Below, piece by piece: positions 3,298 to 57,622 of a DNA stretch of 64,000 nucleotides (position 1 is the first letter of the stretch; every line of letters starts with the position of its first letter). A program made the position numbers and the translations under genes. The stretch is from Phytoactinopolyspora halophila. Its GTDB lineage: Bacteria; Actinomycetota; Actinomycetes; Jiangellales; Jiangellaceae. Below the pieces are notes generated by a model. It did not search any database and had not been told where the DNA came from. It was given only the letters and a program-made list of their open reading frames with translations. The stretch lies in contig NZ_QMIG01000015.1 in the NCBI RefSeq assembly GCF_003287285.1, positions 1 to 64,000 on the forward strand. Direction: 5' to 3'.

Positions 3298-4398
3298 TCA
3301 GAAGTCGTAGTCGTCGATGTTCTCGGCGTTGAACCTGGCCGGCGGGCCGAGCGTCACCACGCCGTCTTCGCCTACCGTGTACTCCCCGAGGTCGCCTGCG
3401 GTGAAGGTCTCACCTTCCGCGCCGGTGATGATGTTCGACGCGATCGCCGCGCCGGTATAGACGGCCAGCTCACCCAGCTCACCCGGATCCCAGAGCGCGA
3501 ACTCGGTCACCGTGCCGTCCTCGACATACTCGCGCATCTGGTTCGGCGTCCCCAGACCGGTCAGCGCTACCTCGCCCTGCTGATCCGAGCTCGACAGGTA
3601 ACGCGCCGCCGCGGCTATGCCCACCGTGGTCGGTGAGATGATCGCGTCCAGATCGGGGTTGGCCTGCAGCAGACCCTGCGTCTCCTGGAACGACTTCTCG
3701 TCCTCGTCGTCGCCGTAGGCCACTCCAGCCAGTTCGATGTCGGCGTAGTCCGGGTTGGTCTCGATCTGTTCCTCGATGACGTCGATCCAGGCGTTCTGGT
3801 TGGTGGCGTTCGCCGTCGCCGACAGGATGGCCACGGTGCCGGAGCCGCCGATCTGCTCGGCGGCCATCTCGATCAGCGTCTCCCCGACGGCGTCGTCGTC
3901 CACCTGGCTGACAAACGCGTCGCGGCAGTCGGCGTCGACGTCCGAATCGAACGTGACGACCACCGTGCCAGCCGCACGTGCCTGTTCGAGCGACGAGCAC
4001 AGCGCGTTCGGATCGTTCGCCGACAGCAGGATGACGTCCGTGCCCTGCTGGCTCACCGTGTTGATGTAGCTGACCTGCGACGAGGCCGTGGCGTCGGATG
4101 GGCCGGTGTACTCGTAGTCGCCACCGAGCTCGTCCACCACCTCAGCGGCGGCCTCGCTGGAGGTTTCGAAGTACGGATTGTTGACCGACTTCGGCAACAT
4201 CGCCAGGCTCAGGCCGGATTCGTAGTCGGCGTCCGGGTCGGCGACGGCGTCAGAGTCGTCGCTGCCGCTGTCGGTATCGTCCTGGCTGTCCTGGGTGGTT
4301 CCACCGCAGGCGCTCAGCGCGAGCGCCAGGGCGAGCCCGATGGCGGCCGGAGCCGCCGGGTGCACTGGGATCCGCTGGAGGGATCGGCCGATGGACAT
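3298..4398 (-). CDS. rhaS: Rhamnose-type ABC transporter substrate-binding lipoprotein
   Basis: This 366-aa sugar-binding protein has a lipoprotein signal peptide ending in the lipobox LALSACGG, then an acidic low-complexity linker to about residue 60 and a periplasmic-binding fold. Features matching the RhaS family are MLPKSVNNPYF at the first strand, ISPTTVGIAAAARY in the middle and TGLGTPNQM with FALWDPGELG near the end. It is the last gene of a minus-strand operon ATPase-permease-permease-binding protein. It should deliver L-rhamnose or a related methylpentose; substrate is assigned by family resemblance. Confidence 0.88.
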   Translation of the reverse strand: MSIGRSLQRIPVHPAAPAAIGLALALALSACGGTTQDSQDDTDSGSDDSDAVADPDADYESGLSLAMLPKSVNNPYFETSSEAAAEVVDELGGDYEYTGPSDATASSQVSYINTVSQQGTDVILLSANDPNALCSSLEQARAAGTVVVTFDSDVDADCRDAFVSQVDDDAVGETLIEMAAEQIGGSGTVAILSATANATNQNAWIDVIEEQIETNPDYADIELAGVAYGDDEDEKSFQETQGLLQANPDLDAIISPTTVGIAAAARYLSSSDQQGEVALTGLGTPNQMREYVEDGTVTEFALWDPGELGELAVYTGAAIASNIITGAEGETFTAGDLGEYTVGEDGVVTLGPPARFNAENIDDYDF

Positions 4399-4411: not shown

Positions 4412-5440
4412 TCACGGGTTCGGAGCGGGCACGTGCGTTCGCCGCAGGCGACGACGCAGGACGCCGCGCACGCGGCCGAGGATGTTCGGCGCGAGAACCG
4501 AGATGATCAGCAGCGAGCCGGTGACCACCGTGAGGGCCTCGCTCGATACGTTGGCCAGCCGTAACGCGTTCTGCAGGGAGGACAGGAGCACGACACCGGC
4601 CAGCACGCCGGGCAGCGTTCCCTTGCCTCCGAAGATGGACACGCCGCCCAGCAGGACGGCGGCCACCACGGTCAGCTCCAGGCCGTGGGCGTTGTCGGCG
4701 CGGGCGCTGGAGAACCGCAGCGTCCAGAAAACGCCGACCAGGCCGGCAACGGCACCGGACGTCACGTACAGCCAGAACTTCAGTTTCGCCACCGGGATGC
4801 CGGCGAAGGCCGCCGCGACGCGGTTGGAACCGGAGGCGAATATGGCCCGGCCGACCGGCATCGCATGCAGCACTGCCGCGAACAGCCCGGCCAGCACGAT
4901 CATGGGGACGAGCACGTTGGGTATCGGGGTCTCCCCGATGGTGCCGATGGTCCAGGAGGAGTGCGAGCGCGGGAAGTCAGCGACGGCGGTGTCACCGAGC
5001 AGCACGAACGCCAGGCCACGGTACAGCGCGAGCGTGCCGATGGTGACCGCGAGGGATGGAAGGCCAAGCGCGGTGACGAAGAACCCGTTCACCGCTCCCA
5101 GGACGGCGCCGATGACGACGCACAACGGCATGATCGTCTCCAGCGGCACGCCGCTGTTCCACATCACGCCCATCGCGGAACTCGTCAACCCGACCGTGCT
5201 CGCCACCGAGAGGTCGATCTCGCCGGTCACGATGATCAGCGTCATCGGCAACGCGAGCAGCAGGATCGGCGCCAGCTCCAGCACGAGGAACGTGGCGTTC
5301 TGCGACGTGCCGAAATGCTGCACGGACGTCACGGCGAAGATCAGGAACACCACCGTCACGACGATGATGGCGACGTCCCACGTCGCGAACCTGCTCAGAT
5401 GCAGCCCATCGCGGCCCTGCCGTCCGGCTTCAACCGACAT
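4412..5440 (-). CDS. Rhamnose-type ABC transporter permease (second)
   Basis: This 342-aa polytopic membrane protein belongs to the RbsC/RhaPQ permease family. It has about nine hydrophobic segments, the GEIDLSVAS motif near residue 75 and the GGVSIFGGKGTLPG loop near 270. It overlaps the upstream permease by 11 bases and ends 13 bases before rhaS, which fits a single operon. The cytoplasmic tail is very basic. It should form a heterodimeric channel with the adjacent permease. Confidence 0.9.
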   Translation of the reverse strand: MSVEAGRQGRDGLHLSRFATWDVAIIVVTVVFLIFAVTSVQHFGTSQNATFLVLELAPILLLALPMTLIIVTGEIDLSVASTVGLTSSAMGVMWNSGVPLETIMPLCVVIGAVLGAVNGFFVTALGLPSLAVTIGTLALYRGLAFVLLGDTAVADFPRSHSSWTIGTIGETPIPNVLVPMIVLAGLFAAVLHAMPVGRAIFASGSNRVAAAFAGIPVAKLKFWLYVTSGAVAGLVGVFWTLRFSSARADNAHGLELTVVAAVLLGGVSIFGGKGTLPGVLAGVVLLSSLQNALRLANVSSEALTVVTGSLLIISVLAPNILGRVRGVLRRRLRRTHVPAPNP

Positions 5441-6476
5441 GTGACCCCTTCTTCCGCAGTGACTCCGCCACGCGCAGCGCGACGAGCCGGTCCACGGCGA
5501 TCGCGCCCACGATCAGGGCGCCGACGATGGCTCGCTGCCAGAACTGATCGATGTTCAGCACCGGGAGGGCGTTGCTGATCACAGTGAGGAGGAACGCGCC
5601 GAGCGCGGCGCCCAGGACGCTGCCGCTGCCGCCGAAGATCGCGACTCCGCCGACAACGACTGCCGCGACGATGTCGAGCTCCATGGCATATCCGGCCGAT
5701 GCGTCGACGGTGCCGTACCGCGCGGCGTAAAGCACCCCGCCGAGGCCCGCCAGCGCCCCGCAGAGCACGTAGGCCGTGAGCTTGCGGCGCCCCGCTGGAA
5801 TGCCGGCAAGCTCGGCGGCTTCCGGGCTGGAGCCAAGCGCGTACATGTCCCGGCCGGCGCGGTATCGGGAGAGGAACACCGCGACCAGGGCGAGGACGAC
5901 GAGCGAGATGAGGATCAGGTACGGCACGCCGAGAACGCGTGCGGACCCGAAATCGAGGAAACCGGCCGGCATGTCCGAGGCGTTGATCCGCGAACCGCCA
6001 GCCACGAAGTACACGACGCCACGGAAGACGTACAGCGTGCCCAGGGTCGCAACCAGTGGCGGCACCCTCCCGAAATGCACCACCGAGCCGTTGAACAGCC
6101 CGCACACCGCGCCGATGCCGAGGCCCACGAGCATGGCCACCGGGATCGATACGCCCGGGTTCTCGCTGAGCAGCCACGCGGTGCAGAAAGCCGACAGGCC
6201 CAGCACCGAACCGACGGACAGGTCGATGCCGCGCGTGAGCACCACAACGGTCATACCGGTGGCGAGTAACAGCGTGATCGAGGCCGCCAGCAGGATGTCC
6301 CGGATACTCGAGCCGCTCAGAAACCTCGGGTTCACGGCGGCCGTGACGGCCACGAGCGCCGCGAGCACCACCAGCAGGCCCAGCGCACGGAACCGCAGCA
6401 CCGTGTCGAGCAGAGTCGAACCGGTCGACGACGTGGCGCCGCCTTCGGAATCCCGCTCCCGTGCGAGCACCGTCAT
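5430..6476 (-). CDS. Rhamnose-type ABC transporter permease (first)
   Basis: The product is a 348-aa RbsC/RhaPQ-type permease with [10 protein letters not shown] near residue 85 and [14 protein letters not shown] near 275. ATG 6476 overlaps the ATPase stop in an ATGA, so this start is preferred to a long upstream extension that only shadows the ATPase gene. Two distinct permeases plus one double ATPase is the arrangement of rhamnose importers rather than ribose or xylose ones. Confidence 0.9.
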
Positions 6477-8020
6477 GCAGCCTCCCGGCCGGTCGCGAGG
6501 AACATCACCGATTCCTCGGTCGCGTCGGCCCTGCTGAGCTCGCCGCTCAGCCGGCCCTCCCGCATGACGAGGATCCGGTCGGCCATGCCGAGAACCTCCG
6601 GAAGTTCGGACGAGACCATCACGATCGCCACGCCGTCCGCGGCCAGCGACGAGAGCAACCGGTGCACCTCCGCCTTGGTCCCGATATCGATGCCGCGGGT
6701 CGGTTCGTCGACGATCAGCACCTTCGGCCCGGTGGCCAGCCACTTGGCCAGGACGACCTTCTGCTGGTTCCCTCCCGAGAGGGTCGCGGCCGGGTCGCCG
6801 AGCCGGCCGTAGCGCGTCTGCAGCCGGCCGGTCCATTCCTCTGCCTCGCGCCGTTCCGACCCGCCGATCAGGAATCCGAGCGTGGACAGCCGGTGCCGGC
6901 GGGCGAGCGTCGCGTTCCGGATGATCGACAGGTCGAGCAACAGCCCCTGCTGGCGCCGGTCCTCGGGCACCAGGGCGACGCCGGCACGCATCGCCGCCCG
7001 CGGATTGGCAGGCGGCAACGTCTGGCCGTCGACCTGAACCGACCCGCTGTCGCGTGGGTCGACTCCGAAGATTCCCTGCACGACCTCCGATCGGCCGGCG
7101 CCGACGAGACCGGCGAGCGCGACGATCTCGCCGGCGCGCACGTCGAAGCTGACGTCTCGATACGCTCCCTCGCGGCTGAGGCCGTCGACCTTCAGGATCA
7201 CGTCACCCGCGTCGACGTCCTCCTTGGGGAACAGGGCGCCGAGCTCGCGTCCCACCATCCGGCGCACGATCTGATCGATGGTGACGTCGGCCAGCCGGTC
7301 CGTCGACACGCGCGCACCGTCACGCATCACCGTCACGCGATCACACAGCGCCTCGACCTCGTCGAAACGGTGCGAGATGAACAGCACGGCAGCTCCGTCG
7401 TCCCGCAACGAGCGGGTGACGGCGAAGAGGCGGTCCACTTCCACGCCGGACAGCGCGGCGGTGGGCTCGTCCATGATGAGCACCCGCGCGTCCAGCGAGA
7501 TGGCCTTAGCGATCTCGACCACTTGCTGGTCGGCGATGGACAGGCCGCGAGCCGGCCGGTCGGGTGCCAGCGGCACGCCGAGGCGGTCGAAGAGTACCGA
7601 CGCCTCCCGGTTCATCCGCGCGCGATCGATCAAGCCGAAGCGAGTGCGCGGCTGGCGTCCGATGAAGATGTTCTCGGCGACGGTGAGGTCGGGAAAGAGG
7701 GTGGGCTCCTGGTAGATGACGGCGATACCCGCGGCCTTCGCGGCGGCGGTGCCGGAGAACTCGACCGGGTGTCCGTCGATCTCCAGCGTCCCGCTGTCCG
7801 GGCGGTGCGCGCCGGCGAGAATCTTGATCAGCGTCGACTTTCCGGCACCGTTCTCACCCACCAGCGCGTGGGCCTCTCCGGCATGGATATCGATACTGGC
7901 ATCGCGAAGGGCGACGACCGAGCCGAAGCTCTTCGAGGCGCCGGTCAGGCGCACGGCGGGCCGTTCGCCCGGCGGCCAGGCCGGCAGCTGCCCCGTGGCC
8001 TCGGTTCCCGTACCGGACAC
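6473..8020 (-). CDS. Rhamnose-type ABC transporter ATPase (two ABC domains)
   Basis: This 515-aa protein contains two fused ABC domains. Domain 1 has Walker A GENGAGKS, signature-region LSIADQQ and Walker [12 protein letters not shown]. Domain 2 has a degenerate P-loop GLVGAGRSE, signature LSGGNQQKV and Walker [13 protein letters not shown]. That asymmetry is normal for the RbsA/RhaT family, in which only one site hydrolyses efficiently. It is the first gene of the operon, with GGAGGG upstream of its start and a LacI-type operator about 17 bases before it. Confidence 0.92.
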
Positions 8021-8036: not shown

Positions 8037-8051
8037 ATGAATCGTTTCATA
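8037..8051 (-). promoter_or_regulatory. LacI-type operator of the rhamnose importer
   Basis: On the minus strand this reads TATGAAACGATTCAT, with TGAAACGATTCA (8038-8049) as a dyad around a central CG, typical of LacI-family operators. It sits just before the ATPase gene. The identical 15-mer, in the same orientation to its genes, is at 51691-51705 before the rhamnosidase operon. Confidence 0.8.
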
Positions 8052-13517: not shown

Positions 13518-14204
13518 ATGACCCATGCCACTGACTCGACCGACAGGCCATGGACATGGAGCAAGCACTGGTCCTGCGGCCCCGTTGAAGGATGGATCTC
13601 TGCGATGTCCGGCAAGGGCTACGGAAAGTTCAGGGGATTCGGGCCATGGGCGATGTTCGGCCACGCGCCGCCGTGGGCTCACCACTGGAGCGGTCCACCT
13701 GGATACGGCCGCGGCCCGAAGGCCCGGCGGGGCGATATCCGCGCCGCTATCCTGGGCATACTCGCCGAGGAGCCCATGAACGGGTACCAGATCATTCAAG
13801 AGGTTGCCGAACGCAGCCGGGGTGCGTGGAAGCCGAGTCCCGGATCGATCTACCCCACGCTGCAGCAGCTTGAGGACGAGGGGCTGGTGCGCACCGCCGA
13901 GCACACGCACACATCGAAGCGGCGCGCTTTCGAGCTCACCGACGAGGGCCGCGCGTACGTCGAGGCGCACCCGGACGAGATCTCGGCACCGTGGAAGACG
14001 TTCACCGACGCCGAGGAGGACGAGCACGACCTCCAGCCGCTCATCGCTCAAGCGGCGGCCGCTATGTGGCAGATCATGGCTACCGGCACCCCTGACCAGC
14101 AGGCACGCGCACGCGAGGTACTGGCCGAGATGCGGCGCCGCCTCTACGGCATCCTCGCGGACGGTGACGAGACCGACGACGCGGACGGAGGCGGCCAATC
14201 ATGA
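13518..14204 (+). CDS. PadR-family regulator with Gly/Trp/His-rich N terminus
   Basis: The 228-aa product starts with an 80-residue Gly/Trp/Pro/His-rich extension, followed by a PadR winged helix: IRAAILGILAEEPMNGYQII, SPGSIYPTLQQLEDEGLV and a RRAFELTDEG wing. Such extensions are common in actinobacterial PadR proteins and may bind metal or a ligand, though this is unproven. The start is fixed by AAGGAGG seven bases before ATG 13518. It overlaps the DUF1707 gene by four bases (ATGA). Confidence 0.88.
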   Translation: MTHATDSTDRPWTWSKHWSCGPVEGWISAMSGKGYGKFRGFGPWAMFGHAPPWAHHWSGPPGYGRGPKARRGDIRAAILGILAEEPMNGYQIIQEVAERSRGAWKPSPGSIYPTLQQLEDEGLVRTAEHTHTSKRRAFELTDEGRAYVEAHPDEISAPWKTFTDAEEDEHDLQPLIAQAAAAMWQIMATGTPDQQARAREVLAEMRRRLYGILADGDETDDADGGGQS

Positions 14205-47921: not shown

Positions 47922-48111
47922 TGTAACACAATTCCTCGTGCATTCGGCCGCGACTGGGAAATTCACGAGAACACCCCACCCGCTGTGGCCGGTTACGGCC
48001 ATGTTGCGGCAACCCGTCTTGACCAGGGACAAAGCGGCGTAGATCGTTGCACACAACCAGGTGCGAACGCCGAGTTCGCGTCGCCGGAGCGATTCAGGAG
48101 GGATCGACACC

Positions 48112-50349
48112 ATGGCCTCGACACGTGCGAGATGGTTGCGCAGAGTGCAACGACGGTGGGGCATGGCCGTCGCCATCGCGACCGCCACGATGATGTCCGC
48201 TGCGCTGCTGACCGGCTTCACTACCCAGGCACAGGACTCGAGCCAGTCAGTGGATCTGGAGGAGTGCCCCTGGATGGACACATCACTGTCGCCGAGCGAA
48301 CGTGCCCGCCTGCTTCTGGACGCGTCAACGCTGGCGCAGAAGATGCGGTGGATCGTCGAGCATCCGGCGACGCGACCCGATGGCACCACATTCAGTGGTG
48401 TCGAGTATCCGGAGGCGTTGCCGTGCACTCCCGATGTCCAGTTCACCGATGGAGCGTACGGCGTACAGTCCGGCAACCCACCCGCGACCGCCTTCCCCGC
48501 GCCGATCGCTGAAGCATCGATGTGGGACACGGAGGTCACCCACGAGAAGTACACGACGGTGGCGCGCGAAGCGTGGGGAAACCGCCGCAGCGTCATCCTC
48601 GCCCCAGGCCTGTCCGGCGGGCGGAACCCGCTGCTGTCACGGACGTCGGAGTACCTGGGTGAGGACCCGGTCCTGGCCGGAGTCCTCGGTGCCCGAGCCG
48701 TGCAGGGCCTGCAGGAGGCCGACGTCCCGATGATCGCCACACCCAAGCACTACGTCGCCAACGAGCACCGCTTCGACGAGAACACCTCGTCGAGCAACAT
48801 GGACGAGCGGACGCTGCGCCAGCACTACGACCTCCCGTTCGCCATCACGATCAAGGAGGGCGACCCGGGCTCGATCATGTGCTCCTACAACGCCGTCAAC
48901 GGCGCGAGCATGTGTGAGAACCCCGAGGTTCTCGACCTGCTTGATGAGGCAGGCTTCGACGGATTCGTGATGTCGGACTTCGGTGGGGTGTATTCGACGG
49001 CACCGTCGCTGAACGCCGGCCTCGACATGGAGCTCAACCGGCCGGTCTATTTCACGCCGGAGAACCTGCACGCCGCGCTCGACGCTGGTGAGATCACCGA
49101 AGGGCGCATCGACGAGGCCGCGTTCAATGTGGTCCGGTCGTTCATCGAGCACGGCCTGTTCGACACACCTCGACTGGACGAGCCGGCCGAGGAGATCGTC
49201 ACGCCAGAGAGCGTGGCGCTGGCCCGGAACATGGCCGAGAAGGGCACCGTCCTGCTGAAGAACGACGATGCGCTGCCCATCGACGACGAGCCGCTCACCA
49301 TCGCCGTGATCGGCCGGACCGCGTCCAACGAGCCGACCGACGGTGTCAGCGCGATCACGGTGTGCGGCGCGCACGGAATGCAGGGCCCTGGCGGCCGGGT
49401 GAACTGCGATGACAACGTCGCACCGCTGGATGCGATCACCGAGCGCGCCGCCGAGGCGGGCGCCACGGTCGTGTACGACGACGGCACCGATCCCGCCGCA
49501 GCCGCCGACGTCGCCGCCGGGGCGGACGTCGCGATCGTCTTCGGCTACACGTACACGGGTTACTCGCAGGACTACACCGACCTGCGGTTGCTCGACGGTG
49601 GAGACGAGCTGATCCAGGCCGTGGCGGCGGCCAACGATCGGACCATCGTGACGTTGCAGACCGGCACGGCGGTGGAGATGCCATGGCTCGACGACGTCGA
49701 CGCCGTGTTGCAGGCGTGGTACGCCGGTCAGCAGATGGGGCCGGCGCTGGCGAACCTGCTCTGGGGAGATGTCAACCCGTCTGGCAAGCTGCCGATGACT
49801 TTCCCGGAGTCGTTCGAGGACACGCCGGTCGCATCACCGGAGCGGTATCCAGGAATCCTGGATGACGACGGCTGGCGCCAGGTCGAGTTCAGCGAAGGTC
49901 TCGCCGTCGGCTACCGGTGGTACGACAGCCAGGGCATCGAGCCGCTCTTCGAGTTCGGGCACGGCTTGTCGTACACCACCTTCGAGTACGAGAAGTTGCG
50001 GGTCACTCCCCGCAAGACCGACGGCACGAAGGAGATCCGAGTCAGGTTCCGGGTGACCAACACCGGCGATCGCGCTGGCCGGGAGATCGCGCAGGTCTAC
50101 CTCGATCTGCCGGACGAAGCGGGCGAGCCGTCGAAACGCCTGGTTGGCTGGGCCAGCGTCGAGCTCGAGCCGGGTGAGCACGAGAACGTGATGGTCCGGC
50201 TCGACGCCGATGATCTCGAGAACCGGCACCTGCTCGACTACTGGAACGAGTCGTCCGGCGAGTGGGTCACGCCGGACGGCAGCTACACCGCGCACGTCGG
50301 CGCCTCGTCGCGCGATCTCCCGCTGGAGGAGACGTTCGAGGTCCGCTGA
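48112..50349 (+). CDS. Exported GH3-family beta-glycosidase
   Basis: This 745-aa protein has a signal peptide (about 1-42), a GH3 N-terminal barrel (ATPKHYVANEHR near 205, GFVMSDFGGVYSTAP with nucleophile Asp near 290), a C-terminal alpha/beta sandwich (KGTVLLKNDDALPI, IVFGYTYTGYSQDY) and an Fn3-like domain (RFRVTNTGDRAGREIAQVYL). SDF replaces the commoner SDW. AGGAGG precedes ATG 48112. Likely substrates are plant beta-glucosides or xylosides; it sits beside the rhamnosidase operon. Confidence 0.9.
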   Translation: MASTRARWLRRVQRRWGMAVAIATATMMSAALLTGFTTQAQDSSQSVDLEECPWMDTSLSPSERARLLLDASTLAQKMRWIVEHPATRPDGTTFSGVEYPEALPCTPDVQFTDGAYGVQSGNPPATAFPAPIAEASMWDTEVTHEKYTTVAREAWGNRRSVILAPGLSGGRNPLLSRTSEYLGEDPVLAGVLGARAVQGLQEADVPMIATPKHYVANEHRFDENTSSSNMDERTLRQHYDLPFAITIKEGDPGSIMCSYNAVNGASMCENPEVLDLLDEAGFDGFVMSDFGGVYSTAPSLNAGLDMELNRPVYFTPENLHAALDAGEITEGRIDEAAFNVVRSFIEHGLFDTPRLDEPAEEIVTPESVALARNMAEKGTVLLKNDDALPIDDEPLTIAVIGRTASNEPTDGVSAITVCGAHGMQGPGGRVNCDDNVAPLDAITERAAEAGATVVYDDGTDPAAAADVAAGADVAIVFGYTYTGYSQDYTDLRLLDGGDELIQAVAAANDRTIVTLQTGTAVEMPWLDDVDAVLQAWYAGQQMGPALANLLWGDVNPSGKLPMTFPESFEDTPVASPERYPGILDDDGWRQVEFSEGLAVGYRWYDSQGIEPLFEFGHGLSYTTFEYEKLRVTPRKTDGTKEIRVRFRVTNTGDRAGREIAQVYLDLPDEAGEPSKRLVGWASVELEPGEHENVMVRLDADDLENRHLLDYWNESSGEWVTPDGSYTAHVGASSRDLPLEETFEVR

Positions 50350-50417: not shown

Positions 50418-50523
50418 GACCACGCCGCGACGCGTGCCCGGGGAGCTTGGCCCATGGACGGCGTCTCGAACCCGTCCCGGTCGATAGCGGCCCCACGTTA
50501 CGGAATCGTGAGGTCGCCCTCTT

Positions 50524-50557
50524 GTAGATCGGTCTACATCAGCGTAGATTGCTCTAC
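50524..50557. promoter_or_regulatory. Tandem dyads in the lacI promoter
   Basis: GTAGATCGGTCTAC (50524-50537) and GTAGATTGCTCTAC (50544-50557) share arms GTAGA/TCTAC and are 20 bases apart, 22 bases before the lacI start. They differ from the TGAAACGATTCA operator, so they may bind another regulator. Confidence 0.65.
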
Positions 50558-50578
50558 ACTCCGACGAAGGAGCTGAGC

Positions 50579-51652
50579 ATGGCGACAGGTGATTCGACGA
50601 GACACGCGACGATCGAAGACGTCGCGCGCGCCGCCGGCGTCTCCCGGGCCGCGGTCTCGAAAGTGCTCCGCGGCGCTTACGGCGTTAGCCCGGACATGCG
50701 CCAGCGCGTCACTACCGCGATCAAGGAGCTGGGCTACCGGCCACGAGTATCCGCGAGGGGAATGCGCGGCGCGACGTACACGCTCGGCATCGAGATCCCC
50801 GATTTCACGAACCACTTCTTCGCCCAGATCATCGATGGCGCGAACGCGGAACTGGCCGGCACGCCGTACCAGCTCATCATCGCGCCGGCCGACCCCGTGC
50901 ATCCGGAAGGCTACCGGGCGATCGAAGCCCTCGCTGATCGCCAGGTCGACGGGCTCGTGGCGGTCTCCCCGATGGTCTCGTCAGCGTGGCTAGAGGACCT
51001 GGCACCCCGAATACCGCTGGTCATGCTGGGCCGGCATGACGAGAACCCGCAGAGATACGACACGGTCGTCGGTGACGACGACGCCGGCACCCAGCTGGTG
51101 CTCAGCCACCTGCTGGAGCTGGGCCACCGCGACATCGTCCACCTCACGCTTACCGAGGACATCACCAAGTGCCAGCCGGGCACGCCGCACGAGATCCGCC
51201 TCCGGAGATATCAGGAGACCATGGTCGAGGCCGGTCTGGCCGATCACGTCCGCGTCGTGCGCGCCGAACCGGGACGGCACGAGGCCTACAAGGCGGCCAT
51301 GGCCCTCCTGGAAAGTGCGGATCGGCCGACGGCGATCTACGCCGCCCACGACGAGACGGCGCTGGGTGTCTTGCATGCGGTGGCCGAACTGGGCCTCACC
51401 GCCGACGACGTGTCGGTGGTCGGCTACGACGATACGGACATCGCCGGCCACCCTCAGATGTCGCTGACCAGCGTCAACCAGTCAGGCATGGAGATGGGAG
51501 CCCGCGCCATCGCCCTCCTGCTCGAACGGATCGCCGGCCGGACGAGCCCGCGCCGGCTGACAATTGCCCCCCGCCTGGTGGTGCGCGACAGCACCGCTCC
51601 CCCGCGCCAGCAGGAGTCGTCCTCGGCGCACCGCCAGGCAAGTACGGACTGA
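50579..51652 (+). CDS. LacI-family regulator of the rhamnoside operon
   Basis: This 357-aa protein starts with a LacI helix-turn-helix (ATIEDVARAAGVSRAAVSKV, then LGYRPRVSARGM hinge) and has a sugar-binding core (LGIEIPDFTNHFFAQIIDGA, IYAAHDETALGVL, VVGYDDTDIAGHPQM). AAGGAG before ATG 50579 fixes the start. It lies directly before the importer/rhamnosidase genes, separated by the operator at 51691. L-rhamnose or a rhamnoside is the likely inducer. Confidence 0.9.
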   Translation: MATGDSTRHATIEDVARAAGVSRAAVSKVLRGAYGVSPDMRQRVTTAIKELGYRPRVSARGMRGATYTLGIEIPDFTNHFFAQIIDGANAELAGTPYQLIIAPADPVHPEGYRAIEALADRQVDGLVAVSPMVSSAWLEDLAPRIPLVMLGRHDENPQRYDTVVGDDDAGTQLVLSHLLELGHRDIVHLTLTEDITKCQPGTPHEIRLRRYQETMVEAGLADHVRVVRAEPGRHEAYKAAMALLESADRPTAIYAAHDETALGVLHAVAELGLTADDVSVVGYDDTDIAGHPQMSLTSVNQSGMEMGARAIALLLERIAGRTSPRRLTIAPRLVVRDSTAPPRQQESSSAHRQASTD

Positions 51653-51679
51653 CCCGAGTGGAGATACACCGATGTCGGT

Positions 51680-52729
51680 TTGGACAGCATTATGAAACGA
51701 TTCATATCGCGACCTGGCGCCGTCGGTGCTGCTGGCCCGCCAGATGACCAACCAGGCGTGACAGCCCGTCCTGACGACGGGCGTGCGATCACGGCCGAGC
51801 CCGATATCGGCACTGCCGGACGGATCAACGGCCGCCCTTCACCTGGCCGCCCACGGTGGCGTGCCCGCGCGGTGCCGTTCTGGTTCCTGATCCCGGCGCT
51901 AGCGCTGTACGGATTCGTCGTCATCTGGCCCAGCCTGCAAGGCGCCGCCTTTTCGCTGACCGACTGGGACGGGCTCAGCCCGACGAAAGACTTCGTGGGG
52001 CTGGCGAACTTTCGAGAGCTGTGGTCAGACGACGTCGCACGCGGAGCCGTCCGGCAGACGATCATCATCGCTATCGCCGTCACCATCATCCAGAACGGTT
52101 TCGGCCTGCTGCTCGCACTCGGCGTGAACACGCAGATACGCAGCCGGAACTTGCTGCGCGTCCTGCTGTTCGCGCCGGCGGTCATTACCCCGGTCATCAC
52201 CGCGTTCCTCTGGAGGCACCTGCTGGCGCCGACCGGTGCGGTCAACGACGTGCTCGGCGCGGTCGGCCTCGGGGCCCTGCAGCGGGATTGGCTTGGCAAC
52301 CCCGACCTCGCGCTGTGGTCGGTTGTCGCCGTCATCGTGTGGCAGTTCGCCGGCCTCTCCATGGTGATCTTCCTGGCGGGATTGCAGAGCATCCCGCGAG
52401 AGATCTACGAGGCCGCCGCCATTGACGGCACCGGTCCAATACGGCGCTTCTGGTACGTCGTGCGCCCCATGCTGGCACCCGCGATCACGATCAATCTGGT
52501 GCTGTCGATGATCGGCGGCCTGAAGCTGTTCGACCAGGTGTGGGTCATGACCGGAGGCGGACCGGGCCGGGCAACCGAAACCCTGTCCACCCTGCTCTAC
52601 AAGGAAGCGTTCCAGTTCGGCGCGTTCGGTTACAGCATCGCGCTCGCCATCGTGCTCACCGCGTTCGTCGCGGTGCTGGCCAGCGTCCAGTACGGATTCT
52701 TGCGGCGTCAGGAGGAATCGGCACAATGA
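51680..52729 (+). CDS. ABC sugar transporter permease (MalF/UgpA type)
   Basis: Six transmembrane segments follow a polar N terminus (first at about 65-90: AVPFWFLIPALALYG), and the EAA loop reads EIYEAAAIDGTGPIRRFWYV. ATG 51680 and ATG 51692 would both place the start on or before the operator at 51691-51705; GTG 51758 is also in frame, so the true start is probably downstream of the operator. It is coupled by ATGA to the next permease. Confidence 0.88.
   Translation: MDSIMKRFISRPGAVGAAGPPDDQPGVTARPDDGRAITAEPDIGTAGRINGRPSPGRPRWRARAVPFWFLIPALALYGFVVIWPSLQGAAFSLTDWDGLSPTKDFVGLANFRELWSDDVARGAVRQTIIIAIAVTIIQNGFGLLLALGVNTQIRSRNLLRVLLFAPAVITPVITAFLWRHLLAPTGAVNDVLGAVGLGALQRDWLGNPDLALWSVVAVIVWQFAGLSMVIFLAGLQSIPREIYEAAAIDGTGPIRRFWYVVRPMLAPAITINLVLSMIGGLKLFDQVWVMTGGGPGRATETLSTLLYKEAFQFGAFGYSIALAIVLTAFVAVLASVQYGFLRRQEESAQ
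51691..51705 (+). promoter_or_regulatory. LacI-type operator of the rhamnosidase operon
   Basis: TATGAAACGATTCAT, with the dyad TGAAACGATTCA at 51693-51704, lies 38 bases after the lacI stop. It is the exact 15-mer found before the rhamnose importer (8037-8051, minus strand). Confidence 0.85.
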
Positions 52730-53547
52730 CCCGTTATCGGCTGGGCACGTTCTGGCTCGAACTCGTGATGATCGCCGTCACCGCGGTGATGGCGTTCCCG
52801 CTCTACGTGCTCGTGAACATGTCACTGCGGCCGGAAGGCAGCGTGAGTTCACCCACGGCTCCAACGACCTCGCCCACGTTGGAGAACTACGGCGACGCGT
52901 GGAGCCAAGCGGGACTCGGCAGCGCGCTGCTCAACAGCATCACGATCACCGGGCTCAGCATCCTCATCCTGGTCCTGGTCTCGTCGATGGCCGCATACCA
53001 CCTGGCCCGGGTGACGGCGATGTGGTCGCGCGGCGTTTTCGTGCTCGTCATGGCCGGGCTGTTGCTCCCGTTCCAGCTCGCGCTCATCCCGCTGTATGTC
53101 ACCGTCCGGGATCTCGGGCTGCTTGGCTCGGTCTGGTCGCTGGTCCTGTTCCACAGCGGGCTCCAGATCCCCCTGTCGGTCTTCCTCTACGTCGGCTTCA
53201 TCCGGGCGCTCCCACGCGAATATGAGGAAGCGGCCCGGATCGACGGATCGGGATCGTGGCAGACGTTCCGCCTCGTGGTGTTCCCGCTACTGCGGCCCAT
53301 CACGGGCACGGTGATCGTCATCAACACCGTACTCATCTGGAACGACTTCCTGACGCCCCTGCTCTATCTCAGCGGGAGCCCATCACAGACGGTACCGGTG
53401 GCGATCTACAGCTTCGTCGGCCAATACATCACCCGGTGGGAGTTCGTCTCCGCCGCCCTGGTGCTGGGCGTCCTACCGGTCCTGATCGCCTACTTCGCCA
53501 TGCAAAAGCACGTCATCAGGGGATTCGCAGGAGGACTCAAGGGATGA
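52726..53547 (+). CDS. ABC sugar transporter permease (MalG/UgpE type)
   Basis: This 273-aa protein has six transmembrane segments and the EAA loop EYEEAARIDGSGSWQTFRLV. GGAGG precedes ATG 52726, which overlaps the previous stop. It has the CUT1 layout, so the importer should take oligosaccharides or glycosides rather than free sugars. No ATPase gene is present; a shared MsiK-type ATPase elsewhere is probable. Confidence 0.92.
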   Translation: MTRYRLGTFWLELVMIAVTAVMAFPLYVLVNMSLRPEGSVSSPTAPTTSPTLENYGDAWSQAGLGSALLNSITITGLSILILVLVSSMAAYHLARVTAMWSRGVFVLVMAGLLLPFQLALIPLYVTVRDLGLLGSVWSLVLFHSGLQIPLSVFLYVGFIRALPREYEEAARIDGSGSWQTFRLVVFPLLRPITGTVIVINTVLIWNDFLTPLLYLSGSPSQTVPVAIYSFVGQYITRWEFVSAALVLGVLPVLIAYFAMQKHVIRGFAGGLKG

Positions 53548-56273
53548 CCAGCTACAGTACAGCGCCGCAGGAGGCACCGCAGCTCACACCGTTTGGGCTG
53601 ATGTGCGACCACCGGGTGACGCCACTCGGTATCGACGAGCCTCGGCCCAGGCTGTCCTGGAAGCTCGCGTCGGACCGTCGCGGCGATCGCCAGGTGGGCT
53701 ACCGGGTCGTCGTCATGCTGCCACCAGACCATCTCAACGGGACCGGCCGGGTGGTGTGGGACACCGACTGGCGGGACGGGGATGCGACGGCCGTCGACTA
53801 TGACGGCGCCCCGTTGCAGTCGTCCACCCGCTACCGGTGGCAGGTCTCGGTTCGCGACACGGACGGCCGGATCACCGAGACCGCGGAGTCGTGGTTCGAG
53901 ACGGCGTTGCTGCACGGCGAGTGGGACGCGGCCTGGATCGCGCACGACCCGCTGGTCATGGCCCCCATGGAGCCGCCGCAAGACGACGACCGATCCGAAC
54001 GCACACGTCACCTACAGCCGGCGCCATTCCTGCGGCGGGCTTTCGATCTCGACGCCCGGCCGGCGCGAGCGCGCGCGTACGTCACCGCCCGCGGACTTTA
54101 CGAGTTGCGGATCAACGGCGAACGCGTGGGCGACGCCGAGCTCGCGCCCGGGTGGACCGACTACCACCGGCGAATCCCGTACCAGGTGTACGACGTCGGC
54201 CACCTCGTCAACGCCGGTTCGAACGTCGTCGGCGCCGTCCTCGGCGACGGCTGGTGGTGCGGCTACATCGGCTTCGACTCGCGCCGACATGCCCAGCACT
54301 ACGGCGAATTTCCCGAGCTGATCGCGCAGCTGGTGTTCGACTTCCACGACGGCTCGCGGCTGACCCTCGGCACGGACGGGACGTGGCGCGAGACCGACAG
54401 CCCCATCCGGTACGCGGATCTGCTGATGGGCGAGTACGTCGACGCGCGCACGGAGCTCGCCGGATGGGACCGGCCCGGGTATGACGACTCGTCCTGGTCC
54501 CCCGTCCTTGTCACCAGCACACACACCGACATGCTCGAAGCAGCCAGCGATGAGCCGATCCGCGTGGTCGAGAAGCTGGCGCCGGTGCGTGTCGATCACC
54601 ACCCGGATGGCACAGCGATCGTCGACCTGGGCCAGAACATGGTTGGCCGGGTACGGCTGACTATCCGTGGAGCCGGGCCAGGTCAGCGGATCAAGCTGCG
54701 GTTCGCCGAGATGCTCGACGCGGATGGCAGCGTCTATCTCGACAACCTGCGCACCGCGGAAGCCACGGATGTCTATATCGCGCGCGGCGCCGAGAGTGAA
54801 ACGTTCGAACCGCGTTTCGCTCTCCACGGATTCAGGTACGTCGAGATCAGCGGATACCCGGGCCACGTCTCGGCCGATGACGTCTCGGGCATGGTGCTGG
54901 CGAACGATATCCCGTGGACCGGTTCGTTCACCTGCTCCGACCGGCTCACAAACCAGCTGGTCTCCAACGTCGCATGGAGCCAGCGCGGCAACTTCGTCGC
55001 GGTGCCGACCGACTGCCCGCAGCGCGACGAACGGCTCGGCTGGACGGCGGACGCGCAGATCTTCCTGCCCACAGCCATGCGCCAGGCCGACGTCGCCGCG
55101 TTCATCACGAGGTGGCTCCGCGACGTCGTCGACGGCCAGCATCCCGACGGGGCCTTTCCGGACGTGATCCCCGAGATCGCGATGACCGGCCCCGGCGCCC
55201 CGGCATGGGGCGACGCGGGAGTGATCATTCCCTGGCTGATCTACCAAGAGCACGGCGACGATCGGGTCCTGCGCCGCTGCTTTCCGGCGATGCGGCGATG
55301 GGTGGACTACATCCACCGCCACAATCCCGACCTCGTCTGGCGCCACCGGACCGGCCGGCACTATGCCGACTGGCTCCAGGTCGATGCCGCGACGTCGCGG
55401 GACGTGCTCGCCACCGCCTACTTCGCCCGCAGCACCGAGCTGGTGTCACGCGCCGCCGCGGCTCTCGGCCAGGACGACGTGGCCGAGGACTACACACGGC
55501 TTCGCGGGCGGATCGCGGACGCCTTCGCCCGCGCGTTCGTCGACGGGGACGGACGCGTCGAGGGAGACACGCAGACCGGCTACCTGTTAGCGCTGTCGTT
55601 CGACCTGTTGCCAGCCGACCTAAGGCCCTGGGCGGCAAAACGGCTCATCGAAGACGTCGAATCCCGCGGCAGCCGCCTGACCACCGGGTTCGTCGGTGTC
55701 GCGCTGCTGTGCCCGACGCTGTGCGCCATCGGCCGTCCGGATCTGGCTTATGACCTGCTGCACCAGGAGGACTACCCGTCCTGGAACTACTCCATCCTGC
55801 ACGGCGCGACCACGATCTGGGAGCGGTGGGACGGCTGGACCCAGGAATACGGATTCCAGTCGGCCGAGATGAACTCGTTCAATCACTACAGTCTCGGCTC
55901 GATCGGCGACTGGCTCTACGGCTGGGTCGCCGGCCTGCGTCAAGCTGAGGATTCCACGGCCTGGCGGCGCATCCTGATCGCGCCCCTTCCGGGAGGCAAG
56001 CTGCACTCGGCCGCGGCCACGCAAATCACCCCGCGCGGCCTGGTCAGCACGGACTGGCAGCTGACCGACGGCACTCTCGACCTCCATGTCCAGATCCCGC
56101 CCGGGGACGCAGCAGAAGTCCGGCTCCCGACCGGCGATCCCCACAGCGTGCAGCTCAACGGTGATCCCGTCGCTGTCGCCGACATGGACGTCCAGTCCGG
56201 CTACATATCAACACGCGTCGAGCCGGGGCAGCACCACATCACGGCTCGCGCAGAGCATCGGCACGAGGGTTGA
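53544..56273 (+). CDS. GH78 alpha-L-rhamnosidase, cytoplasmic
   Basis: This 909-aa enzyme has the family's domain order: N-terminal beta domain (DEPRPRLSWKLASDRRGDRQ), carbohydrate-binding domain (ARAYVTARGLYELRINGERV), a linker domain (VDLGQNMVGRVRLTIRGAGP) and an (alpha/alpha)6 barrel with PTDCPQRDERLGWTADAQIF (acid Asp/Glu cluster) and TIWERWDGWTQEYGFQSAEM with the second catalytic Glu, then MNSFNHYSLGSIGDWLY. There is no signal peptide, so it acts inside the cell on imported rhamnosides. ATGA overlap with the permease gene. Confidence 0.94.
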   Translation: MTSYSTAPQEAPQLTPFGLMCDHRVTPLGIDEPRPRLSWKLASDRRGDRQVGYRVVVMLPPDHLNGTGRVVWDTDWRDGDATAVDYDGAPLQSSTRYRWQVSVRDTDGRITETAESWFETALLHGEWDAAWIAHDPLVMAPMEPPQDDDRSERTRHLQPAPFLRRAFDLDARPARARAYVTARGLYELRINGERVGDAELAPGWTDYHRRIPYQVYDVGHLVNAGSNVVGAVLGDGWWCGYIGFDSRRHAQHYGEFPELIAQLVFDFHDGSRLTLGTDGTWRETDSPIRYADLLMGEYVDARTELAGWDRPGYDDSSWSPVLVTSTHTDMLEAASDEPIRVVEKLAPVRVDHHPDGTAIVDLGQNMVGRVRLTIRGAGPGQRIKLRFAEMLDADGSVYLDNLRTAEATDVYIARGAESETFEPRFALHGFRYVEISGYPGHVSADDVSGMVLANDIPWTGSFTCSDRLTNQLVSNVAWSQRGNFVAVPTDCPQRDERLGWTADAQIFLPTAMRQADVAAFITRWLRDVVDGQHPDGAFPDVIPEIAMTGPGAPAWGDAGVIIPWLIYQEHGDDRVLRRCFPAMRRWVDYIHRHNPDLVWRHRTGRHYADWLQVDAATSRDVLATAYFARSTELVSRAAAALGQDDVAEDYTRLRGRIADAFARAFVDGDGRVEGDTQTGYLLALSFDLLPADLRPWAAKRLIEDVESRGSRLTTGFVGVALLCPTLCAIGRPDLAYDLLHQEDYPSWNYSILHGATTIWERWDGWTQEYGFQSAEMNSFNHYSLGSIGDWLYGWVAGLRQAEDSTAWRRILIAPLPGGKLHSAAATQITPRGLVSTDWQLTDGTLDLHVQIPPGDAAEVRLPTGDPHSVQLNGDPVAVADMDVQSGYISTRVEPGQHHITARAEHRHEG

Positions 56274-56293
56274 TGATCGAAAGGAGCACGGCA

Positions 56294-57622
56294 ATGCGAA
56301 ACCAACGACGGTTCGTCACCGCCGCAGTCGCGGCCACGACGATGGTGCTCGCGGCATGCGGCGGCGATGCCGACAGCGACGAGACAACGGAAGGGACGGG
56401 TGCGGAGGGAAACCAGGCCGACGCGCCGGCGGGTGAGGACGGTGCGGATCTGTCCGGAACGCTGACACTCTCCGGCACCGCCTCCGACCGCCCCGCAGTC
56501 GAAGCGGTGATCGAGCTCTTCGAGGCCGAGTACCCGGACGTGACCGTTGAGACCACGTTCGCCGACACCGAGCCTTACCAGGCGACACTGCGCACGCAGC
56601 TGACCTCCGGCACCGCCCCGGATGTGTTCTTCGCGTGGCCGGGTAACGGCAATCCGGGCGCGGTCCAGGTGCTCGCGCCCAATGGCTTTCTGCGGGATCT
56701 CGGCGACCGGCCGTGGGCCGACAGCGTGCCCGAAGGCATGCACGCGGTCACCGACGTCGACGGGACCCGATACCTGCTGCCAATGGCATTCAGCGGAATC
56801 GGCGCGATCTACAACCAGGCGGCCATGGACGAGATCGGCGCAGCCGCACCCGAGACATGGGACGAGGTGCTCACGCTCTGCCAGACCGCACAGGACGCCG
56901 GAAAGGTCGCCTTCGCCCTGGGAAATCAGACCAACTGGGTAACACAGCTGATCAACTACGCGCTCGCGGCGACGAACGTCTACGGTGCTGACGAGAACTT
57001 CGTCGACAGCATGGCGGCCGGTGACGCGACCTTTGCCGGCTCGGACTGGGTCGGCACGATGGAACAGTACATGCAGATGAACGACGCCGGGTGTTTCCAG
57101 TCCGACCCGCTCGGCACGTCGTACGAGACGACCATCGACATGGTCGCCACCGGCGACGCGCTGGCGGTCGTGCAGGGAACGTGGGCCATCGCGTTGCTTG
57201 CCGAGCAAGCACCCGACGGCGAGTTCCGATTGGCGGCGCTTCCGGCCACGAACGATCCGAACGAGACGGTCATGCCTGGCGCGCCGTCCGGCACGTTCGC
57301 CGTTAACGCCGAACCCGCTGAACCCGACCTGGCACTGGCGTTCATCGACTTCATGGCGACACCCGAAGCGATGAACACCTTCGCTGAGACCGGTGGATCG
57401 CTCCCGGCGATTCCGAACGACCAGTACGAGGTCGATCCCGCCCTCGAAGAGCTCATCGAGTTCCAGAGCGCGGGTCGGACCGTGCCGTTCATGGATCAGC
57501 TGTGGCCGAATCCCCGCGTCCAGGAGGCGCATTTGACCGGTGTGCAGGAGATCTTCGCCGGTGAAACGTCGATCGGCGACGTGCTACAGACCATGGACGA
57601 GGCGTACGCCAAAGGCCAGTAG
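56294..57622 (+). CDS. ABC sugar transporter substrate-binding lipoprotein
   Basis: The 442-aa product has a lipobox VLAACGG near residue 25, an acidic linker and a CUT1 solute-binding fold (TLRTQLTSGTAPDVFFAWPG, LPMAFSGIGAIYNQAAMDEI, VMPGAPSGTFAVNAEPAEPD). AAAGGAG precedes ATG 56294. It completes the lacI-permease-permease-GH78 operon and should bind a rhamnosylated oligosaccharide or glycoside. Confidence 0.92.
   Translation: MRNQRRFVTAAVAATTMVLAACGGDADSDETTEGTGAEGNQADAPAGEDGADLSGTLTLSGTASDRPAVEAVIELFEAEYPDVTVETTFADTEPYQATLRTQLTSGTAPDVFFAWPGNGNPGAVQVLAPNGFLRDLGDRPWADSVPEGMHAVTDVDGTRYLLPMAFSGIGAIYNQAAMDEIGAAAPETWDEVLTLCQTAQDAGKVAFALGNQTNWVTQLINYALAATNVYGADENFVDSMAAGDATFAGSDWVGTMEQYMQMNDAGCFQSDPLGTSYETTIDMVATGDALAVVQGTWAIALLAEQAPDGEFRLAALPATNDPNETVMPGAPSGTFAVNAEPAEPDLALAFIDFMATPEAMNTFAETGGSLPAIPNDQYEVDPALEELIEFQSAGRTVPFMDQLWPNPRVQEAHLTGVQEIFAGETSIGDVLQTMDEAYAKGQ

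Follow-up and report, generated by a model that had tools for sequence, protein, structure and literature searches.

The 64-kb stretch of DNA analysed here, referred to in its whole length as the window, carries an L-rhamnose import operon and a rhamnoside permease/rhamnosidase operon, each associated with a copy of the same 15-base sequence, TATGAAACGATTCAT. The importer operon begins with its ATPase gene, whose orthologues are 76-81% identical, and includes the gene for the binding protein RhaS:

3298..4398, minus strand: L-rhamnose-binding protein RhaS (TIGR02637, 361 bits against a cut-off of 342)
4412..5440, minus strand: importer permease 2 (monosaccharide ABC permease models; synteny with orthologues)
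5430..6476, minus strand: importer permease 1 (monosaccharide ABC permease models; synteny with orthologues)
6473..8020, minus strand: rhamnose ABC importer ATP-binding protein, RhaT-like (NCBIfam sugar ABC ATPase matches below the equivalog cut-offs)
8037..8051, minus strand: TATGAAACGATTCAT, predicted RhaR-type operator 1, 16 bp ahead of the ATPase start codon

The second locus combines a glycosidase gene, a LacI-family gene, which encodes what is called below the window LacI, and an oligosaccharide permease/GH78 operon:

48061..50349, plus strand: GH3 glycosidase upstream of lacI (Pfam GH3)
50523..50538, unstranded: TGTAGATCGGTCTACA, conserved dyad, predicted autoregulatory operator of the window LacI
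50543..50558, unstranded: CGTAGATTGCTCTACA, weaker second copy, 20 bp from TGTAGATCGGTCTACA (dyad match)
50579..51652, plus strand: LacI-family regulator (PF00356 and sugar-binding domains)
51691..51705, plus strand: TATGAAACGATTCAT, predicted RhaR-type operator 2, between lacI and the permease/GH78 operon
51680..52729, plus strand: oligosaccharide ABC permease A (UgpA/MalF-type permease models)
52726..53547, plus strand: oligosaccharide ABC permease B (GlcU/MalG-type permease models)
53544..56273, plus strand: GH78 alpha-L-rhamnosidase (five Pfam rhamnosidase domains above cut-off, best E 5e-121)
56270..57622, plus strand: sugar ABC substrate-binding protein (carbohydrate-binding-protein models)

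The repeated sequence and its surroundings

A string match over the whole window locates TATGAAACGATTCAT exactly at 8037-8051 on the minus strand and at 51691-51705 on the plus strand, 43.65 kb apart, with each copy oriented in the direction of transcription of the next gene. When up to three mismatches are allowed, the 15-mer is still confined to these two places in the window, each of which matches on both strands because the sequence is a near-palindrome; dinucleotide shuffles of the window gave a mean of 0.23 matches and in 0 of 100 cases reached four. Each copy forms a dyad in which six of seven half-site pairs are complementary about a central CG, an arrangement usual in LacI-family operators. 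In the genome as a whole (5.04 Mb) the core TGAAACGATTCA occurs at the two window sites only, with none for the reversed-pattern control. A sequence-only reading of the window had already described this identical pair with its LacI-like dyad and central CG, had placed it before a rhamnose importer and a GH78 operon and had pointed to a LacI gene ahead of the second copy; on all of these points the string match, the TIGR02637 and Pfam assignments and the lacI stop codon at 51652, 38 bp ahead of site 2, bear it out.

The start codon of permease A is uncertain, with TTG 51680, ATG 51692 and GTG 51758 all in frame, so that site 2 may either precede the coding region or overlap its start. A seven-codon open reading frame, ATGTCGGTTTGGACAGCATTATGA, at 51672-51695 follows lacI and overlaps the in-frame ATG of the permease extension, which is a possible instance of translational coupling or else a coincidence. 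A scan for sigma-70 consensus promoters at the 8037 and 51691 sites found none.

RhaR and the distribution of its predicted operator

Outside the window, on contig C25, another LacI-family gene (C25:362340-363395) is divergent from a rhaI-rhaEW-rhaB operon, and the gap between regulator and rhaI holds the perfect palindrome TGAAACGTTTCA at C25:362243-362254, its sole occurrence in the genome. The products of the operon are assigned with differing margins: rhaI scores 618 bits with TIGR02635 against a cut-off of 531, and rhaEW, a bifunctional aldolase/dehydrogenase, 1081 bits with TIGR02632 against 568, while the rhamnulokinase-like rhaB product reaches 442 bits with TIGR02627, below the cut-off of 528. 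No rhaA-type isomerase (TIGR01748) was found in the genome, in which the rhamnose isomerase is of the Gram-positive RhaI type (TIGR02635). As the C25 LacI gene adjoins these catabolic genes with a palindrome between them, its product is identified as RhaR; at the recognition-helix positions (LacI positions 17, 18, 19 and 22) it carries V-G-T-N.

The motif is conserved with RhaR across the family. RhaR orthologues with the motif upstream are present in 18 of the 21 other family genomes, and among the 19 promoters that these make up together with the genome's own, TGAAHCGDTTCA is matched at 12 of 12 positions in 18 and at 11 of 12 in one, a result found in 0 of 200 shuffles for each. All 19 sites take the form TGAAWCGWTTCA or TGAAYCGRTTCA, in one case with one mismatch. 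Further afield, 42 of 80 named RhaR-like proteins, which span Actinomycetota from Phytoactinopolyspora to Streptomyces and Rhodococcus and of which the closest is that of Phytoactinopolyspora alkaliphila (76% identity), have at least 11 of 12 motif positions within 350 bp upstream, as compared with 0 of 1600 shuffles. In about half of the 80, many from Streptomyces, the motif is missing; these proteins may be paralogues.

The sites also mark a consistent set of genes. The 25 TGAAWCGWTTCA sites tallied across the 22 family genomes are not scattered at random: 23 belong to a RhaR promoter, to a RhaS-type or RhaT-like importer, or to a GH78 gene or operon, and the remaining two are found on the genome's own contig C27 and before a sulfatase gene in G020. 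In G010 and G012 a GH78 gene with a site is a neighbour of RhaR, and a further GH78 gene with a site is found in G015. G005, G011, G013, G016 and G020 each have the importer operator as well, 3.6-3.7 kb ahead of rhaS, and all five of these genomes have a RhaR orthologue. Within the present genome, allowing one mismatch to TGAAWCGWTTCA gives eight places, with no matches for the control; two of these, C8:9084 and C39:16332, adjoin genes without a link to rhamnose and are taken as chance. The earlier proposal of one regulon for rhamnoside import, rhamnoside cleavage and rhamnose uptake is thus supported at the level of predicted operators and would extend to rhaI-rhaEW-rhaB on C25.

Which LacI protein reads the sites

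The reading preferred here, to which a probability of about 0.8 is given, is that the two 15-mers are operators through which RhaR represses both operons, while the window LacI is a separate regulator acting on TGTAGATCGGTCTACA. This comparison of operators and regulators relies on the test patterns TGTAGAnCGnTCTACA and TGAAHCGDTTCA, which were picked after some of the sequences had been seen, so that the shuffle frequencies of the crossed operator test describe the data and are not to be taken as strict significance values; a more independent check is provided by the genomes found later (G218, G210 and G109) and by the 80 named loci. A whole-genome protein search with the window LacI found orthologues in eight other genomes, and a separate scan of the collection found no relative. 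The promoter of the window LacI gene matches the TGTAGA dyad at 14 of 14 positions and the TGAA motif at 8 of 12 at best, which is the level of shuffled sequence. Upstream of its four closest orthologues (G011, G218, G210 and G109) the TGTAGA dyad is matched at 12-13 of 14 positions (shuffle frequency at most 0.003), and less well upstream of a fifth, in G159 (10 of 14, shuffle frequency 0.09); the 15-mer-type motif in the five reaches 7, 10, 10, 7 and 9 of 12, the TGAA-like matches of 10 of 12 in G218 and G210 having a shuffle frequency of about 0.01. Conversely, the TGTAGA dyad was found in 0 of the 19 RhaR promoters, the best match being at shuffle level in every one.

The pairing of operator with LacI clade extends to the recognition helix. 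The window LacI has R-A-A-K where RhaR has V-G-T-N, and those orthologues that keep R-A-A keep TGTAGA-type dyads, while in a sister group with a T-T-A helix (G074, G144 and G091) the site is GGGTAACGTTACCC or nearly so. The dyads are paired in G218, G109 and G210 as they are in the window; in G218 and G210 they lie between the LacI gene and the transporter genes divergent from it, while G109 has them upstream of its LacI gene, and GH78 is part of all three loci. Orthologues of the window LacI adjoin genes for a substrate-binding protein, permeases and GH78, and TGTAGATCGGTCTACA itself has no other match in the genome within one mismatch. The window LacI is therefore probably, on these sequence comparisons, a local rhamnoside regulator that does not read the two 15-mers.

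The sequence-only reading had instead made the LacI encoded at 50579-51652 the protein that binds both 15-mers and governs the regulon. Its gene is the nearest LacI gene and ends 38 bp ahead of site 2; in G011, too, the orthologue precedes such a site, and more distant orthologues in G074, G144 and G091 have a TGAAWCGWTTYA site upstream. Against this assignment stand a promoter with its own conserved operator, TGTAGATCGGTCTACA, in place of the 15-mer motif that RhaR promoters carry, a recognition helix unlike that of RhaR, and the importer site in G005, G013, G016 and G020, in none of which was an orthologue of the window LacI found at the search threshold (G011 has one). The crossed operator test led to its rejection as the main model, and it is now considered very improbable. 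A still fainter prospect, close to negligible, is that the repeat reflects chance or coding coincidence. Site 2 can indeed fall within an ORF extension that reads MKRFIS upstream of the permease frame, but the expectation from base composition for a 5.04-Mb genome is just 0.09 occurrences for the 12-mer core and 0.0005 for the 15-mer, the conserved counterpart of site 2 in G011 (TGAATCGTTTCA, at the same position, 36 bp after the LacI orthologue) is non-coding, and in the 22 family genomes TGAAHCGDTTCA occurs at 45 places as compared with 2 for the reversed pattern; this explanation was rejected as contradicted by both conservation and expectation.

A third candidate is a second RhaR-like LacI, encoded at C27:10919-12010 and 54% identical to RhaR, which could read the two window sites instead of RhaR or along with it. 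Its helix, V-S-T-N, is nearly that of RhaR, three of the eight near-matches in the genome lie around its gene, and the C27 cluster (C27:1-20000) contains TGAATCGATTCA at 3825 and TGAATCGTTACA at 13559; as the palindrome TGAATCGATTCA is one base off the window sites, the C27 protein may cross-bind them. In G006 and G019, moreover, a RhaR paralogue (50-52% identical to RhaR) adjoins a RhaS-type importer with TGAATCGATTCA. In G005, G011, G013 and G016, however, the importer site is present and the sole close RhaR-type LacI is the true RhaR orthologue, and the C27 cluster was found to contain no rhamnose isomerase/aldolase genes and resembles a sugar-acid pathway. A role for this paralogue at the window sites is accordingly considered unlikely, if less so than one for the window LacI. 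The cluster also encodes an enolase-superfamily dehydratase, a DHDPS-like aldolase, an SDR protein, an IclR regulator, a sugar ABC importer and a sulfatase, and is probably a pathway for a sugar acid or a sulfated glycan, with an operator almost identical to the present one.

With RhaR as the reader of the 15-mers, a dimer bound to TGAAWCGWTTCA-type sites in the absence of rhamnose would block the catabolic promoter, the importer promoter (8037) and the permease/GH78 promoter (51691). A rhamnose-derived inducer would then free RhaR from its operators, so that rhamnoside cleavage, uptake and catabolism are proposed to begin together. The window LacI would control its own gene through the paired dyads at 50523-50558, and because transcription of lacI can continue into the GH78 operon, it probably adds a rhamnoside-specific layer by read-through.

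Whether such layering is general is suggested by the relatives. TGAA sites of at least 11 of 12 are found at the LacI locus in G011, G074, G144 and G091, and the upstream region of a GH3 gene in G210 (L217:3040-3298), whose product is 52% identical to the window GH3, combines a TGAAACGGTTCA site with two TGTAGA-type dyads; together these suggest recurrent two-layer control. A more specific version, held tentatively and at somewhat less than an even chance, is that rhamnoside-import/GH78 loci in several actinobacterial families stack a local GH78-linked LacI (on TGTAGAnCGnTCTACA, or on GGGTAACGTTACCC in the sister group) with the general RhaR (on TGAAWCGWTTCA), the local protein presumably sensing an oligosaccharide and RhaR rhamnose, the pair acting as an AND-gate or as a feed-forward switch in two steps. 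The window GH3 is possibly also a member of the rhamnoside locus. Directly upstream of it, at 48038-48053, lies CGTAGATCGTTGCACA, which matches the dyad at 11 of 14 positions and is a weak candidate for an operator of the local LacI.

Relation to described systems

The operators of Cra/FruR in Enterobacteria (TGAAACGTTTCA) are a very similar LacI-family palindrome, and the TGAAACGTTTCA string was found in a paper on Cra. Cra/FruR differs from RhaR in regulator, pathway and phylum, so that the likeness would be convergent or due to shared LacI-family recognition only. A literature search for the letters of the motif found no rhamnose regulator among the papers listed.

In the literature searched for LacI control of rhamnose genes, PMC3870299 alone was relevant. 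There, a LacI-family RhaR is described for Actinomycetales that co-regulates the uptake and catabolism of rhamnose and rhamno-oligosaccharides, including rhamnosidases (Rodionova et al. 2013, PMC3870299). The present system resembles that regulon, as far as its description was consulted, in having a LacI-family regulator beside the rhamnose catabolic genes (here on C25) with a RhaEW pathway, in its palindromic LacI-type operators, here at the regulator/catabolic promoter and conserved in relatives, and in the co-regulation of rhamnose uptake and catabolism with rhamnoside ABC transporters and alpha-L-rhamnosidases, here represented by predicted operators before the rhamnose importer and the rhamnoside transporter/rhamnosidase genes. 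The likeness is one of genes, operator placement and palindrome type, and the rhamnose circuit as such belongs to a known kind. The 15-mer motif is absent from the promoters of the window LacI and its closest orthologues, and the second, local LacI with its TGTAGA operator has no mention in what the consulted parts of PMC3870299 say of the RhaR regulon. The same source, in the sections drawn on here, describes RhmR in Chloroflexus and RhiR in Rhizobiales and Erwinia as LacI-family regulators of rhamno-oligosaccharide loci (PMC3870299). The window LacI resembles these by gene arrangement, as a local gene beside a rhamnoside transporter and a rhamnosidase; by that account RhmR and RhiR are specialised regulators of their own locus, whereas at the window locus a predicted operator of RhaR, the general regulator, is present as well.

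What is modestly new is that predicted operators of two LacI proteins are stacked repeatedly at rhamnoside loci, which illustrates how a general sugar regulator can overlay a locally regulated oligosaccharide locus. Pairing each of the two LacI proteins with its own operator corrects an assignment by nearest neighbour and defines a testable rhamnose regulon for a Jiangellaceae genome, and the operator can be used for predicting rhamnose genes across Actinomycetota.

Two observations concern the neighbours of the rhamnose genes. Genes for a GntR regulator, the L-lactate dehydrogenase LldD and FAH-family proteins lie near RhaR in the present genome (L039) and near the importer in relatives (L112, L113, L114 and L111), a company that fits a route from lactaldehyde to lactate and pyruvate. 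In G005 (L111:6382-9360) a gene for a DUF5722 protein, a family of unknown function, lies divergent to the rhamnose importer and has TGAATCGGTTCA 20 bp ahead of it; the gene is a candidate for addition to the rhamnose regulon.
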